A program made the translations under genes and the position numbers. From a virus: a stretch of DNA of 22,788 nt. Every line of letters starts with the position of its first letter. Position 1 is the stretch's first letter. Below the pieces are notes generated by a model. That model was not told the DNA's origin. It worked only from the letters and a program-made list of their open reading frames with translations, and made no database searches. Location: IMG/VR virus record IMGVR_UViG_3300030119_000126, positions 1 to 22,788 of that record, one strand, 5' to 3'. Below, in pieces: positions 2,707 to 20,388 of the stretch.

Positions 2707-2859
2707 GTGGAAAACGAACTCGACAAGATCAAAGAACGTTTAGAGAAACTAGAAAAAGATTCTCACCCACCAATTGGTCTTGAATGTTTTACAGGGTTCA
2801 AAGAATTATGCGAGAGAATACAGAAGTTAGAAAATGCCATACTCAAAAGAAGTAGTTAA
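2707..2859 (+). CDS. Small coiled-coil protein (50 aa), unknown
   Basis: A 50-residue frame starts at GTG 2707 and ends at TAA 2857-2859, overlapping the start of the Fe-S scaffold gene by 26 bases in another frame. The N-terminal third (ENELDKIKERLEKLEKD) and C-terminal third (LCERIQKLENAILKR) have heptad-like Leu/Ile spacing and probably form short coiled coils around a central PPIGLECFTGF loop. It fills the gap between gp43 and the scaffold gene, and its charged, ordered composition is protein-like. There is no good Shine-Dalgarno and the start is not ATG, so whether it is translated is uncertain. I do not recognise its function. Confidence 0.5.
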   Translation: MENELDKIKERLEKLEKDSHPPIGLECFTGFKELCERIQKLENAILKRSS

Positions 2860-3235
2860 GAGATTCGAAGAAGTTCTTAACTCACCAAAACAATTTAGTG
2901 TAGGACGATTTGATCCTAATGATCCAAACGTAGCAACAGGAATGACTGGTGCACCTGCTTGTGGTGATGTCATGAAACTTCAATTGAAACTCGATGAAGA
3001 CGAAAGAATTATAGATGTAAAATTTAAAACTTATGGTTGTGGTAGTGCGATTGCATCATCAACTATGTTCGTAGAGATGCTCAAGGGTAGAACTATCGAA
3101 GAGGCAAAACTTGTCAAAGATAGAGATATTGCAGAAGCATTACAATTACCACCAATTAAATTACACTGTTCTGTACTAGCAGAAGATAGTATAAAGAAGG
3201 CAATCGAAGACTGGGAGAGAAAAAAAGATGTATGA
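2834..3235 (+). CDS. iscU: IscU-type iron-sulfur cluster scaffold protein
   Basis: In bacteria IscU receives sulfur from IscS and iron, builds a [2Fe-2S] cluster and passes it on through the HscA/HscB chaperones. The 133-residue protein is close to E. coli IscU (128). It has all ligands and motifs: GAPACGD (C43, D45), TYGCGSAIASS (C69), the chaperone motif LPPIK (105-109) and H111-C112. It is therefore IscU rather than NifU or SufU in type. No partner (IscS, HscA, ferredoxin) is present, so it would work with host machinery. It overlaps the nuclease gene by 8 bases, which suggests translational coupling. It is best viewed as an auxiliary metabolic gene. The client protein is unknown. Confidence 0.93.
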   Translation: MPYSKEVVKRFEEVLNSPKQFSVGRFDPNDPNVATGMTGAPACGDVMKLQLKLDEDERIIDVKFKTYGCGSAIASSTMFVEMLKGRTIEEAKLVKDRDIAEALQLPPIKLHCSVLAEDSIKKAIEDWERKKDV

Positions 3236-3668
3236 ATATAATGTTACGATAGTAAAAATCGTTGACGGAGATACTGTTGATGTAGATATTGATCTCGGTT
3301 TTGGTATGACCTATAAAAAGCAAAGAGTTAGAATGATGGGCATAGATACCCCGGAATCTCGTACAAGAGATTTAGTAGAAAAGCAATTTGGTAAAGCATC
3401 AAAGAAACACTTAACAAGACTATTAGCAGATGCAGATAGTCTTACACTTATGTCACATGATAAGGGTAAGTTTGGTAGAATTCTTGGTGAAATATTTGCT
3501 CATCACGGAGAAGAAGAATTTAGTATTAATCAAAGAATGATAGATGATCATCATGCCGTACCATATAGTGGTCAATCAAAAGATGATATCGAAAGACAAC
3601 ATTTAGAGAACAGAAAAATTCTTCAAGAAAATGGCACAGTAGAAGTGCAAGGAGAATTATCAGTATGA
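3228..3668 (+). CDS. Staphylococcal-nuclease-like (thermonuclease) protein
   Basis: SNase-fold phosphodiesterases cut DNA and RNA with calcium. The 146 residues show VDGDTVDVDIDLG at 12-24, RVRMMGIDTPE at 33-43 and KGKFGRILG at 79-87. R35, D40, T41 and E43 fall on the same numbers as the catalytic and calcium residues of S. aureus nuclease, and R84 matches its R87. There is no signal peptide, so it should act in the cytoplasm, perhaps in host DNA breakdown or recombination. The C-terminus (HHAVPYSGQSKDDIERQHLE) goes beyond the core. It overlaps the scaffold gene upstream by 8 bases and the next small gene by 4 (ATGA). Confidence 0.9.
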   Translation: MYEYNVTIVKIVDGDTVDVDIDLGFGMTYKKQRVRMMGIDTPESRTRDLVEKQFGKASKKHLTRLLADADSLTLMSHDKGKFGRILGEIFAHHGEEEFSINQRMIDDHHAVPYSGQSKDDIERQHLENRKILQENGTVEVQGELSV

Positions 3669-6402: not shown

Positions 6403-6633
6403 ATGAAAGAAGTAAGAATTAAAGGATTCCCAATCATCAAGGGTCAGGTTAGAGATGATGCTATCATCGAGATACCTATACCTGCAGACTTGCATGAACT
6501 CGCACTTTCTGGTGATGGTGACGACTGGGACTTAATGTGTAAAAGATTGCCTGCACATGGATTTGCGAATCCAATTGGTAGAATGTCTATCGAAGAAATT
6601 AAAATCGATGGAGAATGGAGAGTATTTCACTAA
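6403..6633 (+). CDS. Unknown small protein (76 aa)
   Basis: The protein is 76 residues, acidic and probably compact, with alternating strands and a WDLMCKRL helix (EIPIPADLHELALSGD near the middle). It contains no motif I can name. It begins 6 bases after a strong early promoter, and its TAA overlaps the ATG of the phosphatase gene (TAATG), so it is the lead gene of that operon. It is probably an early-expressed host-takeover or regulatory protein by position alone. Confidence 0.75.
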   Translation: MKEVRIKGFPIIKGQVRDDAIIEIPIPADLHELALSGDGDDWDLMCKRLPAHGFANPIGRMSIEEIKIDGEWRVFH

Positions 6634-7076
6634 TGAAAAAATGTATTATTTTTGATATTGATGGCACTATTGCTGATGTAGAGCATAGAAGACATTTTGT
6701 ATCTGGCGAAAAGAAAGATTGGAAAAATTTTAGATTAGCAACTAAGCATGACACTCCTGTTGAGTGGGTTTGTGCTATTGCTAGAAGATTCATTGCTCAA
6801 GGCGATGATGTTGCTTTCTTCTCAGCAAGAAATGAATCAGAGAGAGACATTACTGAAAAACAAGTTATGGACTGGATCGGTGAAGATCACAAAGGTATCT
6901 TTCTTAGACCTGATGGTGACTTCAGATGCGATGCAGAATTCAAATCTGATCTTGCAGATAAGTTTTTAGAACTTGGTGGTAAGATTGACCTTATCTTTGA
7001 CGATAGAAATAAAGTTGTAGATATGTGGAGAGATAGGGGATTCACTGTAGTCCAAGTTGCAGACGGAGACTTTTAA
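6633..7076 (+). CDS. HAD phosphatase like the 3'-phosphatase domain of T4 Pnkp
   Basis: In T4, Pnkp (PseT) removes 3'-phosphates from nicked RNA or DNA with its C-terminal HAD domain and phosphorylates 5' ends with its N-terminal kinase. This 147-residue protein carries only the phosphatase half. HAD motif I is FDIDGT (D8, D10), motif II is FFSAR (S64, R66) and motif IV is IFDDR (D123, D124). The end DDRNKVVDMW...QVADGDF closely follows the T4 Pnkp C-terminus as I remember it. No kinase P-loop is present here. An ATG at 6615 is in frame, but 6633 puts motif I at the usual distance and abuts the upstream stop. Substrate is inferred from similarity; it could also act on mononucleotides. Confidence 0.88.
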   Translation: MKKCIIFDIDGTIADVEHRRHFVSGEKKDWKNFRLATKHDTPVEWVCAIARRFIAQGDDVAFFSARNESERDITEKQVMDWIGEDHKGIFLRPDGDFRCDAEFKSDLADKFLELGGKIDLIFDDRNKVVDMWRDRGFTVVQVADGDF

Positions 7077-7993: not shown

Positions 7994-8029
7994 GTAGTAT
8001 TGCACAAATAATTGTGTTATAATAGTATT

Positions 8030-9238
8030 ATGGCCAAAAATTTACACTTAGAACATTTAGAAGACGAGATCATTAATAATGGTATAAAGGGTGGTCGTGC
8101 ATCAATATTCTTCTTATTAGAACTTCGAAATATGCTCAAGGGTAATTCTAAGGGTCGTGTAAATATGACTGTAAAATGGGACGGAGCACCAGCAATTTGG
8201 TGTGGTAAACACCCAGAAGATGGTAGATTCTTTGTCGCAAAGAAATCTCTATTTAATAAAACACCACTTTTCTATACATCAGAACAAGAGATCAAAAATG
8301 CATCAGAACTATCTGGTGATCTAGAGACTAAATTCTTAGAAGCATTTAGACATTTCTCTAGATTATCATGGGGTAATAAAATATTACAGGGTGATCTGAT
8401 GTTTACTAAAGGCGATAAAAAAATGGAAAAGATAGGTAATCTATCGTATGTTACATTTCAACCAAACACAATCAAGTATGCCGCGGTCAACGGATCACCA
8501 CTTGCAAATGCAATCAACAATGCAGATATTGGTATTGTCTGGCATACAACATACACAGGACCAACAATAGCAGATTTGTCTGCAAGTTTTGGTGCAGATA
8601 TTAGTTCATTAGGACACTCTAATTCTATATGGATGGACGATGCGACATACAAAGATGTATCTGGTAATAGTGCAATGACTGCCAAAGAGTCAGTTAGATT
8701 ATCAAATAGTTTATCACAATTAGGAAAAACTTTTAGAAAGATCACCAAAAATGATCTTAACAGAATGAGAAAAATTATGGACACTTTTGCTAGTAAGTCA
8801 GCAATAGGTGCCTCATACAAAACATACGTAAACTCAAAAATCAGATCAGGCAAATTTAATCCATCTTACGAAGATTATCTGATTTATGTTGACAAATATT
8901 ACGAGCAAAAGATCATAGCAAAAGTTAAGATGGAAAAAACTAAACTGATCAAGAAAGAAATTAAAGAACAATTATTGTCTGAGATTAGACGATTAAAGAA
9001 ATTTTTTCAAGCATTAACAGAGTTTCAGAGATTAATGATTGAATCAAAACAAATAATAATAGTTGCTCTCAATAGAGTAAAAAGCATAGGGACATTTGTA
9101 AAAACTAGCACAGGTTATAAAGTAGTGAACCCAGAAGGTTATGTTGCAATTGACAGAGATGGCAATGCAGTAAAACTAGTAGATCGTATGGAATTCTCAC
9201 TAAATAACTTTACAGTAGCAAAAGATTGGGATAAGTAA
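8030..9238 (+). CDS. Putative covalent nucleotidyltransferase (KWDG, ligase/capping-like)
   Basis: The 402 residues contain what look like the core motifs of the ligase/mRNA-capping superfamily. Motif I (K-x-D-G) is VKWDGAPAI with K49 as candidate AMP- or GMP-linked lysine. A motif III-like strand is ILQGDLMF (118-125). Motif IV is NPEGYV (367-372) and motif V is AVKLVDR (380-386). Between III and IV sits an insert of about 240 residues with a long Lys-rich helical stretch (near 290-355). From memory, T4-like marine phages carry a family of unknown function (DUF6267) with the same TVKWDG core. ATG 8030 is preferred over an in-frame TTG at 8012. Its stop overlaps the next ATG. The substrate is unknown: RNA, DNA or protein nucleotidylation are all possible. 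Confidence 0.75.
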   Translation: MAKNLHLEHLEDEIINNGIKGGRASIFFLLELRNMLKGNSKGRVNMTVKWDGAPAIWCGKHPEDGRFFVAKKSLFNKTPLFYTSEQEIKNASELSGDLETKFLEAFRHFSRLSWGNKILQGDLMFTKGDKKMEKIGNLSYVTFQPNTIKYAAVNGSPLANAINNADIGIVWHTTYTGPTIADLSASFGADISSLGHSNSIWMDDATYKDVSGNSAMTAKESVRLSNSLSQLGKTFRKITKNDLNRMRKIMDTFASKSAIGASYKTYVNSKIRSGKFNPSYEDYLIYVDKYYEQKIIAKVKMEKTKLIKKEIKEQLLSEIRRLKKFFQALTEFQRLMIESKQIIIVALNRVKSIGTFVKTSTGYKVVNPEGYVAIDRDGNAVKLVDRMEFSLNNFTVAKDWDK

Positions 9239-9375
9239 TGAAGAAGACAATCTATTGCCGATTATGTGATCATGTCGTACGCCCAGGTGACGACCCTACA
9301 GAAGAAGTAGAAGATTGCATACTAGATGTTGGTTTTAATGATAACTTATGTGAACCAGAAGAAGAAGAAGAATGA
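9238..9375 (+). CDS. Small Cys-containing acidic protein (45 aa)
   Basis: The frame starts at ATG 9238 (TAATG overlap) and ends at TGA 9373-9375, which overlaps the next ATG (ATGA). The 45 residues contain C7-x2-C10 (YCRLCDH), C27 and C39, and end in a run of five Glu. The cysteines could bind one zinc ion, as in a minimal zinc ribbon. It sits between the KWDG protein and the next coupled gene, so it may be an accessory subunit. No family recognised. Confidence 0.6.
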   Translation: MKKTIYCRLCDHVVRPGDDPTEEVEDCILDVGFNDNLCEPEEEEE

Positions 9376-9698
9376 TAAGTTTTAAAGAATTTTTAGAGAA
9401 CAGTAACCCTAGAATTCCTAGAAAAAAAGGACAACCTGCTAATTCTAAGAAACATTCCGATCTATACACAGATGAAAATCCAAGGGGTACGATTCATGGA
9501 TTAAAATTTGCAACAGTAGATGATGCAGAGAAAAGTGTAAAGAAGATAGAAAACTCTGGTAAAAAACATGCTCATAAAATACAGGCCGCGATTGCAATGG
9601 AACAAAGAGCAAAAGAAATGGGAAAAAAATCTGCCGCGGCAGTTTATAGAAAGTACATCGAAAAGATGAAAAAGATTACTAAGGAAAAGAACAAGTGA
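9372..9698 (+). CDS. Small basic phage protein with capsid-targeting-like N-terminus (108 aa)
   Basis: The N-terminus MISFKEFLEN resembles the T4 capsid-targeting sequences of internal head proteins (M-K-T/S-F/Y-x-E-F pattern). A very basic linker follows, then a conserved helical module (FATVDDAEKSVKKIE, then HAHKIQAAIAMEQRAKEMG and AAVYRKYIEKMKK). From memory that module recurs at the ends of many marine phage proteins. Function is unknown. Nucleic-acid binding is likely from charge. Its stop overlaps the GTG start of the next gene. Confidence 0.7.
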   Translation: MISFKEFLENSNPRIPRKKGQPANSKKHSDLYTDENPRGTIHGLKFATVDDAEKSVKKIENSGKKHAHKIQAAIAMEQRAKEMGKKSAAAVYRKYIEKMKKITKEKNK

Positions 9699-10939
9699 AA
9701 GAAGTAACATTTACATTTGGAAGATTTAATCCACCAACTACAGGTCATGCTAAACTTGTGGGCAAATTAGCAAAAGGTCGTGGTGATAAAATGCTTTTCA
9801 CATCACACTCAAACGATAAGAAAAAGAATCCACTATCTCATAAAGACAAAATTAAATATCTCAGAAAGTTTTTTAAGAGCAAAGTCAATGTGCCAAATGC
9901 AAATGCTAGAACAGTATTTGAAATTGCAAATGCACTACAAAATCAGGGTTATACTCACGTAAATATGATTGTTGGTTCTGATAGAGTCAGAGAGTTTGAA
10001 ACATTGTTAAACAAATATAATGGCGTAAAAGCAAGACACGGATTCTATAATTTCGAACAAATCAATATTATTTCTGCAGGTGAACGTGACCCTGATGCCG
10101 ATGATGTTTCTGGAATGTCAGCATCGAAAATGAGACACTATGCAGAAACAGATAATTTTTCAGAGTTTGCAAAGGGCGTACCATCAAGAAACAAAAAAGA
10201 TATTGAAGGTGTATACAGAGCAGTTAGAAAAGGTATGGGTATCATGGAATCTTTTTTACCATTATACATGATAGAAGATTTAATTACAGAAGGTGTATAT
10301 GATCCTGGTATATTCAAAGCAGTGTTTCTAGCAGGTGGACCAGGAAGTGGTAAATCAACAGTTGTAAAACAATTAGCACTTGATACTCTTGGACTCAAAA
10401 TGGTAAACACAGATAAAGCATTCGAGAATGGTCTGAAGAAAGCAGGTCTATCTCTTGATCTTAGAAAACTTGATGCAGTCGTCAGAGATCCTATCAGAGC
10501 AAAAGCAAAAAACATAACAAAGAAAAATCTGGACAATTATATTGGTGGACGACTTGGTTTGATATTCGATACAACTTCAGCAAAAGACTCAAAAATTAAA
10601 CAATACAAGAAGATGTTAGATGCATTAGGGTATGAGTACAAAATGGTTTATGTTAATGCATCACTAGACAATGCTCAAAAAAGAAATAAAGCAAGAGCAA
10701 GAAAATTACCACCAGAAATAGTCAAAAATGATTGGGACGCCGCTCAGAAAAATGTCAAATCATATCGTGGTATTTTTGGTAGAGATTTTGTTGAGATTAG
10801 AAATGATGATGATCTTAAATCTTTACAAGCAAAAACACAAAAATTATTTGGTAAGTTAATGTCTTGGTCATCTGCATTCCCAGGAAATAAATTAGCAACC
10901 TCTTGGAAACAAGCAGAACTACAATCTAAAAAAGAATAA
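9695..10939 (+). CDS. Nucleotidyltransferase (NMNAT/cytidylyltransferase-like) fused to P-loop kinase
   Basis: The protein has 414 residues and two enzymes. Residues 1-180 are an HxGH-superfamily nucleotidyltransferase with GRFNPPTTGH at 9-18 (T15-x-G-H18) and the SxxxxR signature GMSASKMR ending at R147. Residues about 205-400 are a zeta-toxin/AAA_33-like kinase with Walker A GGPGSGKS at 214-221, NTDKAFE near 238-244 and GRLGLIFDTT. The architecture recalls NadR (NMN adenylyltransferase plus nicotinamide riboside kinase), though the kinase looks more zeta-like. The GTG start overlaps the previous stop by 4 bases, with AAGGA upstream. Roles in NAD salvage or nucleic-acid end processing are inferences. 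Confidence 0.85.
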   Translation: MKEVTFTFGRFNPPTTGHAKLVGKLAKGRGDKMLFTSHSNDKKKNPLSHKDKIKYLRKFFKSKVNVPNANARTVFEIANALQNQGYTHVNMIVGSDRVREFETLLNKYNGVKARHGFYNFEQINIISAGERDPDADDVSGMSASKMRHYAETDNFSEFAKGVPSRNKKDIEGVYRAVRKGMGIMESFLPLYMIEDLITEGVYDPGIFKAVFLAGGPGSGKSTVVKQLALDTLGLKMVNTDKAFENGLKKAGLSLDLRKLDAVVRDPIRAKAKNITKKNLDNYIGGRLGLIFDTTSAKDSKIKQYKKMLDALGYEYKMVYVNASLDNAQKRNKARARKLPPEIVKNDWDAAQKNVKSYRGIFGRDFVEIRNDDDLKSLQAKTQKLFGKLMSWSSAFPGNKLATSWKQAELQSKKE

Positions 10940-19004: not shown

Positions 19005-19616
19005 ATGGTCGGAAGAGTAATAGACAGTTTAATTGTTTTTCGTATTCTCAAGATGTTAACTACACCTTTTGAGAAACAACAGGCGTATAAGTTTGGATTC
19101 ATTGACAAACGTGGTAATCGTATCAAAAAGATCAAAGATGAAAATGGCAATGATATCGATAATAATCCAGTCACTCAGAAAGAAAAAAATTCACTCACAC
19201 CTTTACATAGATTAGTATTTAATTTAAAAAGACTAATAGAAAAAGTACCATTTGGTAAGACTGCTTTTGCCTCTTATGCAGTTGCATTACTACTTCTAAA
19301 AGAAGAGACTAATTTAGATCAAGAACAAACAGATCAACTATTCGAAGACTTTTACAAACATTTAAAAGAACTCAATGTCATGAATCCAGAGATGATCTCA
19401 GAGGCGATAGAAGTTGGTAAACTACACGAAGACAGACCATATAATTTACGTAGACAAATCAAACAAAACTTTACAGATACTGGTGAGATAAAAATCTATC
19501 CAGAAAAAACACAAATTACTGATGTCAAAGAGCATAGCATAGGATATGGTATAACAATATATCAAGGTATGATCGAAGAAGAGACAGTATTATTCACGGC
19601 AGAAGATGTTTATTGA
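19005..19616 (+). CDS. Conserved T4-like phage protein (203 aa), unknown
   Basis: It opens with VIDSLIVFRILKMLTTPFEK, has a charged KRGNRIKKIKDENG loop and a conserved core TPLHRLVFNLKRLIEKVPFG followed by SYAVALLLLKEE. From memory this core is shared by marine T4-like phages next to the DUF7207-like gene. The C-terminal third (residues about 135-203) is acidic and beta-prone (ISEAIEVGKLHEDRPYN; EIKIYPEKTQITDVKE) and looks like a separate small domain. It overlaps the phosphatase gene by 11 bases. The function is unknown. Confidence 0.78.
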   Translation: MVGRVIDSLIVFRILKMLTTPFEKQQAYKFGFIDKRGNRIKKIKDENGNDIDNNPVTQKEKNSLTPLHRLVFNLKRLIEKVPFGKTAFASYAVALLLLKEETNLDQEQTDQLFEDFYKHLKELNVMNPEMISEAIEVGKLHEDRPYNLRRQIKQNFTDTGEIKIYPEKTQITDVKEHSIGYGITIYQGMIEEETVLFTAEDVY

Positions 19617-20388
19617 AGAAATCACAAAGATAGACACACTTGTATTCAAACCACAAGATGAGTTAAAGAAAGCAAAATACAAACAAATCGAATTATTTGA
19701 TGATGGGTGGCAAAGTATTGTTATGCCTAATCCACCTAAAAATTCATCGTCAGAAACACGAAATGAAATACAAGAGATCATAAAAAGATATACAAACAAA
19801 ACAGATCAAGACAAACAAGAGTATATAAATTGTGATGAAGATTCTAGTTACTACATAAAATTAGTCTTAGAAGAGAACAACATGGACTACAGTGAAGATA
19901 CAATTGTGTATATCGAAGACCAATGTAGACCTATTATTAGACATTACAAAAATCACTATAACAGACCTAGACCATATCAAGTTGCAGAGGCGTTGGGTAT
20001 AGACTTCAAAAGATTTGTGACTGATACAGCAAAGACACCATCATATCCATCAGGTCATACTGTACAACCATACGTAGTAGCAAATTATTATGGTAAATTA
20101 TATCCAGAAATAAAAAGTGAACTCAGAGAAGCGGCCGATATATGTGCATTTGGTCGTGTGATTGCAGGGTTACATTATCCATCTGATTACAGAGGTGGTA
20201 TAATATTAGCAGATCAGTTATCACAATATCTGAAATTTGACAATCTATCAGAAGATGCACCACTAAATTCTACAGGTGATGCAGTACAAACTAACCATCC
20301 ACTACAGTTTAGTAAATCACTATACAGAAGAAAAAACGAATTAGACACAAAGAGACTATACAAATTACTCAAAAAAAGATATAATTAG
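19606..20388 (+). CDS. PAP2-superfamily phosphatase
   Basis: The acid-phosphatase/haloperoxidase signature is complete. C1 is KNHYNRPRP (K115-x6-R122-P123). C2 is PSYPSGHT (P148-S-G-H151). C3 is GRVIAGLHYPSD (R184-x5-H190-x3-D194), with the usual leading Ser replaced by Gly. Catalysis would go through a phosphohistidine at H190. The 260-residue protein has no signal peptide and no clear membrane helices, so it is a soluble cytoplasmic member, unlike most bacterial PAP2 enzymes. The N-terminal 100 residues are an acidic extra domain. Substrates may be nucleotides, phospholipids or other phosphomonoesters. It is followed within 3 bases by a membrane protein gene. Confidence 0.88.
   Translation: MFIEEITKIDTLVFKPQDELKKAKYKQIELFDDGWQSIVMPNPPKNSSSETRNEIQEIIKRYTNKTDQDKQEYINCDEDSSYYIKLVLEENNMDYSEDTIVYIEDQCRPIIRHYKNHYNRPRPYQVAEALGIDFKRFVTDTAKTPSYPSGHTVQPYVVANYYGKLYPEIKSELREAADICAFGRVIAGLHYPSDYRGGIILADQLSQYLKFDNLSEDAPLNSTGDAVQTNHPLQFSKSLYRRKNELDTKRLYKLLKKRYN

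Follow-up and report, generated by a model that had tools for sequence, protein, structure and literature searches.

RLIG1 (C12orf29 and its viral homologues) is a 5'-to-3' RNA ligase with a single nucleotidyltransferase domain (PMC11494293). In the viral enzyme, described as a nucleotidyltransferase-only RNA ligase, motif IIIa is a histidine, and E240 and K253 are separated by a spacing of 13 (PMC11494293). The RNA ligases of phage T4, Rnl1 (PF09511) and Rnl2 (PF09414), have no OB domain. Capping enzymes bear an OB domain at the C-terminus, and all DNA ligases known to us carry one.

T4-like cyanophages are among the commonest marine phages. Homologues of g30, the T4 DNA ligase gene, were not found in cyanomyoviruses; distant homologues may have been missed, although absence was thought more probable, and the host ligase can serve in place of phage g30 (PMC2984593). 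Pnk and Rnl1 were also reported to be absent from T4-like cyanophages, on the grounds that these phages would not be expected to encounter anticodon nucleases (PMC3874168). Here, we analyzed a 22.8-kb viral record (the window, i.e., the whole stretch of 22,788 nucleotides) and its relatives, and we propose a role for DUF6267, a family without an assigned function. Its sequences and predicted models suggest that it is likely a ligase-type enzyme.

Putative active-site motifs of the DUF6267 protein

The DUF6267 gene of the window is located at 8030-9238 on the + strand, where a clean open reading frame of 402 codons runs from an ATG at 8030 to a stop codon at 9236-9238. Its 402-aa product scored 330.9 bits (E=1.7e-98) against PF19782/DUF6267 over profile positions 1-376 of 376. 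Membership was defined as a score above the curated Pfam cut-off (27) across the whole profile, and the window protein is thus a full-length member. It also matched phrog_455. The first-pass annotation had described the family as annotated only as unknown; indeed, PF19782 and phrog_455 both bear the label "unknown function", and a literature search found no mention of DUF6267. A PDB sequence search with the window protein found no similar chain, and no ligase was retrieved from PDB by the family profile or by profiles of the N-terminal and the C-terminal motifs taken separately. When 93 homologues were scanned against Pfam, DUF6267 alone recurred consistently. The product is predicted to be an RNA-ligase-like covalent nucleotidyltransferase, as described below.

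The same 93 diverse homologues, whose identity to the window protein ranges from 25 to 89%, were aligned. Motif I is K49-W-D51-G52 (8174-8185, +), in which K49, D51, and G52 are invariant and K49 is the predicted adenylylated lysine. A motif Ia-like K72-S73 in VAKKS (8243-8248, +; K72 invariant, S73 in 88/93) may be compared with KSKGS in T4 Rnl1 and AKRTG in Rnl2. Motif III, ILQGDLMF (residues 118-125; 8381-8404, +), holds the invariant Q120 and D122, the latter within a β strand formed by residues 118-126. Y150 is invariant, as are H172 and T173 (8543-8548, +) in the strand 167-176; by analogy with the motif IIIa histidine of RLIG1 (PMC11494293), we propose H172 as the motif IIIa equivalent. 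Toward the C-terminus, motif IV is E369-G-Y-V (9134-9145, +), with E369 and G370 invariant, and motif V is A-V-K382-L-V-D-R386 (9167-9187, +), with K382 and R386 invariant. The invariant residues thereby follow the order of motifs I, Ia, III, IIIa, IV, and V of covalent nucleotidyltransferases. The first-pass annotation had placed VKWDG (K49-G52), ILQGDLMF at 118-125, NPEGYV at 367-372, and AVKLVDR at 380-386, and all of these placements were right. Further invariant residues, H6, H9, E11, and D12 near the N-terminus and R386, F389, and N393 at the other end, are specific to the family. The second lysine of the KxK form of motif V is replaced by valine (V384) in 92 of the 93 homologues. This replacement is not decisive because RLIG1 has been described with a single motif V lysine, K253 (PMC11494293).

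An ordered pattern, K.DG ... [GA][DE] ... EG.[VI] ... K, was found in 327/327 homologues compared to about 0.2% of shuffled sequences. It also occurred in 21 of 804 other open reading frames of at least 280 residues. Among the matches listed (20), 18 were T4 gp30-type, DNA-ligase, or Rnl1 proteins, all comparators fetched for this analysis, and two were DUF6267 copies that had been missed. The full-length PF19782 membership, the invariant residues, and the occurrence of the pattern in every homologue but in few shuffles therefore indicate that the motif arrangement is not due to chance.

Motifs III and IV of the window protein are separated by 247 residues (D122 to E369), in line with the earlier estimate of about 240, which had been judged far above that of compact ligases. 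The corresponding distances are 68 in T4 Rnl1, 105 in T4 Rnl2, and 88 in the DNA ligase of phage S-CRM01. The large insert claimed for this stretch is present as a set of helices at residues 218-348 (8681-9073, +; DSSP of the model). However, it is partly a lineage feature, since about 97 residues of the window protein, mostly between motifs III and IV, are absent from compact family members (~290 aa), where the insert is reduced. Even so, the compact form, with a III-IV distance of 157, remains longer in this region than all three comparators.

Predicted fold and comparison with known ligases

Structure prediction and a fold search had been suggested as a check of the assignment; they gave confident models and best matches enriched in ligases and capping enzymes. 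AlphaFold2 models had a pLDDT of 89.0 and a pTM of 0.84 for the window protein, and 93.9 and 0.88 for a compact relative. In the model, a strand precedes motif I, motif III is part of a strand, and motifs IV and V make up two successive strands. With either model, a Foldseek search of PDB returned no match below E=0.001. As counted by hand, RNA ligases, DNA ligases, LigA, RNA-editing ligases, and capping enzymes accounted for 11 of the 50 best PDB matches of the long model and for 19 of the 50 best of the compact model, with 8 of the first 10 in the latter list, and these entries bore the highest probabilities. Carbonic anhydrases also recurred, with probabilities up to 0.06. Against viral models, 13 family members came first; next was an RNA ligase from a Lactococcus phage (probability 1.00, E=0.015), and below it were RNA ligases bearing kinase domains as well as ICP-46 proteins. 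After motif V, only about 16 residues with a single helix remain before the protein ends at residue 402. Thus, the window protein has neither a C-terminal OB domain nor motif VI, which places it outside PF01068 and the capping guanylyltransferases, and it has no recognizable RNA-binding domain.

Sequence comparison pointed to the same part of the protein. When full-length T4 Rnl1 and the full-length window protein were compared by BLASTP, exactly the motif IV-V stretch was picked (NIEGYVAVMKDGSHFKI in T4 Rnl1, aligned with NPEGYVAIDRDGNAVKL in the window protein), with 9/17 identical residues and E=0.013. The spacing from the motif IV glutamate to the motif V lysine is 13 in both proteins. The DUF6267 and Rnl1 families were aligned by hhalign in the correct register (E=0.03), with a score reached in 0 of 60 column shuffles. 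The best path with Rnl1 passed through motif IV, which was also aligned in the printed alignments with the Rnl2 and DNA ligase sets, although the scores against Rnl2 and DNA ligase were not significant. With half profiles, the scores were small, and only the C-terminal half against Rnl1 exceeded all shuffles. Overall, no sequence-profile comparison matched DUF6267 to any ligase at conventional significance; PF09414 gave no match to the window protein, and PF09511 was found neither in DUF6267 phages nor among the matches listed for the 93 homologues. In the same set-up, Rnl1 against DNA ligase, an accepted relative, gave E=0.3 with the motifs missed, and Rnl1 against Rnl2 gave 0.0038. Because Rnl1 and DNA ligase also fail this test, non-significance is to be expected between relatives this distant, and we did not count it against membership.

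Compared with individual enzymes, DUF6267 resembles T4 Rnl1 in its KxDG, motif Ia lysine region, acidic motif III, EGYV motif IV, and lack of an OB domain, but differs in a KxV instead of a KxK motif V, in extra helices between motifs III and IV in place of the C-terminal RNA-binding domain, and in a unique HLEHxED N-terminus. With RLIG1, it shares a predicted single nucleotidyltransferase domain, KxDG, the proposed motif IIIa histidine, and the spacing of 13 (PMC11494293), whereas the helical insert and the fusion or linkage to a cytidylyltransferase-like enzyme set it apart. This likeness follows the published description of RLIG1 (PMC11494293); sequence searches of PDB returned no hit to it. 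The motif order, EGYV, a Foldseek match to 2hvq, and the missing OB domain are common to T4 Rnl2, although DUF6267 is devoid of the C-terminal Rnl2 domain. Similarly, ATP-dependent DNA ligases (PF01068, e.g., T4 gp30) have motifs I, III, IV, and V in the same order and appear among the fold matches (3rr5, 2hiv, and 2cfm), but DUF6267 differs from them in having no OB domain and no motif VI. As a predicted member of the covalent nucleotidyltransferase superfamily, it has a new and distinct architecture.

It could be argued that the motifs are coincidental, or that DUF6267 is a dead enzyme or an unrelated fold that serves a structural purpose or binds nucleic acids, given that neither the sequence searches nor Foldseek against PDB produced a significant match. 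The invariance of the core catalytic residues and the specificity of the ordered pattern argue otherwise, as do the enrichment of ligases among the fold matches and the probability of 1.00 for a viral RNA ligase. Moreover, dead enzymes seldom retain catalytic residues down to ~25% identity, as DUF6267 does. We therefore regard this explanation as very unlikely. Based on the motifs and the models, DUF6267 likely belongs to the covalent nucleotidyltransferase (ligase/capping) superfamily. Within this superfamily, the missing C-terminal OB domain makes an RNA-ligase type more probable than a DNA ligase or a capping enzyme. On balance, we favor the view that DUF6267 is a divergent, RNA-ligase-type member of the covalent nucleotidyltransferases that is devoid of an OB domain and for which RNA sealing is predicted.

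Distribution and neighboring genes

DUF6267 was detected by tblastn in 469 phage records (466 with the window protein as the query), comprising 371 Synechococcus-phage, 61 cyanophage, and 24 Prochlorococcus-phage records together with some Pelagibacter and Methylophilales phages. For comparison, the Syn9 replicative helicase was detected in 376 and 61 records of Synechococcus phages and cyanophages, respectively. DUF6267 is present in nearly all T4-like cyanophage records. Among 13 complete phage genomes, it occurs in 12/12 Kyanoviridae and is absent from T4. In the same set, PF01068 DNA ligase was found in T4 and S-CRM01 only, the Rnl1 and Rnl2 profiles matched T4 only, and an NAD-dependent ligase was found in none; classical ligases are hence absent from 11 of the 12 DUF6267 genomes tested. 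The freshwater cyanophage S-CRM01, in which DUF6267 and a classical ATP-dependent DNA ligase occur together, provides a natural test of redundancy.

This distribution bears on whether DUF6267 might supply the replicative DNA ligase that T4-like cyanophages seem to lack, joining Okazaki fragments instead of T4 gp30. The family is as widespread as the replicative helicase, its gene often lies slightly downstream of gp41, and the reported lack of g30 left room for distant homologues (PMC2984593). However, only about 16 residues follow motif V, so that there is no OB domain, its best motif match is RNA ligase 1, the host ligase can serve (PMC2984593), and S-CRM01 has a classical DNA ligase in addition to DUF6267. 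Taken together, we consider a replicative DNA ligase a poor candidate for the function of this family.

In the window, where the surrounding genes were named from their translations, genes for a T4-like DNA polymerase, UvsX, and gp41-type proteins are followed by a HAD phosphatase, DUF6267, a small lysine-rich protein, and a cytidylyltransferase-like/kinase protein. The phosphatase gene (6615-7076, +) encodes a HAD_PNKP-type 3'-phosphatase (PF25109, E=5.8e-27). The last gene (9695-10939, +) encodes an N-terminal cytidylyltransferase-like domain (PF01467) and a C-terminal, polynucleotide-kinase-like P-loop kinase domain (PF13671), with matches to phrog_3041 and phrog_505; the kinase domain matched the polynucleotide kinase family phrog_505 at 2e-10. 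The domain architecture of this fusion recalls that of NadR, and its substrate might be a nucleotide instead of RNA ends. A small open reading frame at 9238-9375 overlaps the DUF6267 stop codon (TAATG) and has a zinc-ribbon-like start, CRLCDH. By eye, a NifU/IscU-like iron-sulfur scaffold gene (2834-3235) and a thermonuclease-like gene (3228-3668) were observed between the polymerase and uvsX, and the protein of 19606-20388 contains PSGHT and GLHYPSD, motifs of PAP2-type phosphatases.

In three family branches, the cytidylyltransferase-like gene is next to DUF6267 or close to it (76/80, 73/80, and 79/80 loci); in the fourth (group D), this holds for 0/80 loci. In phage S-PM2, the two are fused into one 591-aa protein, and the phrog_455 profile covers DUF6267 in one part and the partner type in another. 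These findings raise the alternative that DUF6267 transfers NMP to a different acceptor, which could be a protein, a small molecule, or, in capping, the 5' end of an RNA; a product of its cytidylyltransferase-like partner may be used in this transfer. That this tightest partner is a HIGH-type nucleotidylyltransferase would suit such a reaction, as would the family-specific invariant residues at both ends and V384 in place of the second motif V lysine. Nevertheless, the C-terminal OB domain of capping enzymes is absent, all 80 group D loci are without the partner, and nothing indicates a specific acceptor; NMP transfer is, in our opinion, unlikely.

Among the close loci of the window's branch, the kinase was found in 71/80 and the PNKP-type phosphatase in 15/80, and neither was matched in groups B-D with the queries used. 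A general healing-and-sealing operon was thus considered and found to be of limited application, since only part of the family has this end-healing context. For the window's own branch, the kinase and phosphatase neighbors would be consistent with RNA repair of the kind seen in T4. Neither was found elsewhere in the family, whose general role may therefore depend on the cytidylyltransferase-like partner or solely on the ligase.

A TATAAT hexamer (8018-8023, +), extended by a preceding TGT, is located 6 nt before the DUF6267 start codon. Exact copies were observed in 33 of 58 distinct upstream regions of close relatives compared to 2.7% of random 60-mers, and near-exact copies usually lie 6-8 nt from the start codon. 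In a second branch, TATAAT occurred in 56/58 distinct upstream regions, usually at 21-23 nt. The conserved hexamer is therefore likely a gene-specific promoter of DUF6267. From a position 6-8 nt ahead of the start codon, it would direct the synthesis of an almost or entirely leaderless transcript.

N-termini resembling the T4 capsid-targeting sequence (PMC9026906), MKxFxxFLxE, were found at 38 of 971 open reading frame starts compared to 1.15 expected by shuffling. In the window, they occur at 9372, 12539, and 18138, the first belonging to the small lysine-rich protein (9372-9698, +), which starts with MISFKEFLEN. Across loci L001-L080 and L088-L167, the cytidylyltransferase-like partner has such an N-terminus in 73/73 cases in the S-CAM8 branch and 28/74 in the window's branch. 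Judging from these N-termini, the partners may be packaged in the head. A capsid-targeting N-terminus on the DUF6267 family itself was rejected, as relatives start with M..KNLHLEH or similar. The exception is Melnitz-3 (L084:8962-10209), where DUF6267 starts at TTG with INFSKYITED, a capsid-targeting-like extension before the HLEH motif.

Proposed reaction and its implications

RNA sealing is the best single reading of DUF6267, and one we lean toward, because the protein resembles Rnl1 and RLIG1 and has no OB domain. In the proposed reaction, K49 would attack ATP, the presumed donor, to form lysyl-AMP, while E369, K382, D122, and H172 would position the nucleotide and the metal. AMP would then be passed to a 5'-phosphate end, and a 3'-OH would close the phosphodiester bond, most likely in RNA. 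Ends may be prepared by the partners, that is, the downstream kinase domain and, in some relatives including the window, the upstream PNKP-type phosphatase.

A broader and more doubtful proposal is that T4-like cyanophages and their relatives possess a near-universal, unrecognized ligase of a new architecture, which works with the cytidylyltransferase-like (partly kinase) partner. Through the capsid-targeting-like peptide that this partner bears in many relatives, an end-processing activity might be carried inside the head and reach the host cell together with the genome.

If true, a near-universal ligase-like enzyme, which in the window's group adjoins a polynucleotide-kinase-like domain, would overturn or qualify the published absence of the T4 DNA ligase (PMC2984593) and of Pnk and Rnl1 (PMC3874168) from these phages. 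It would suggest either that marine hosts use RNA-cutting defenses or that the phages seal their own nicks, and DUF6267 would represent a new ligase scaffold.
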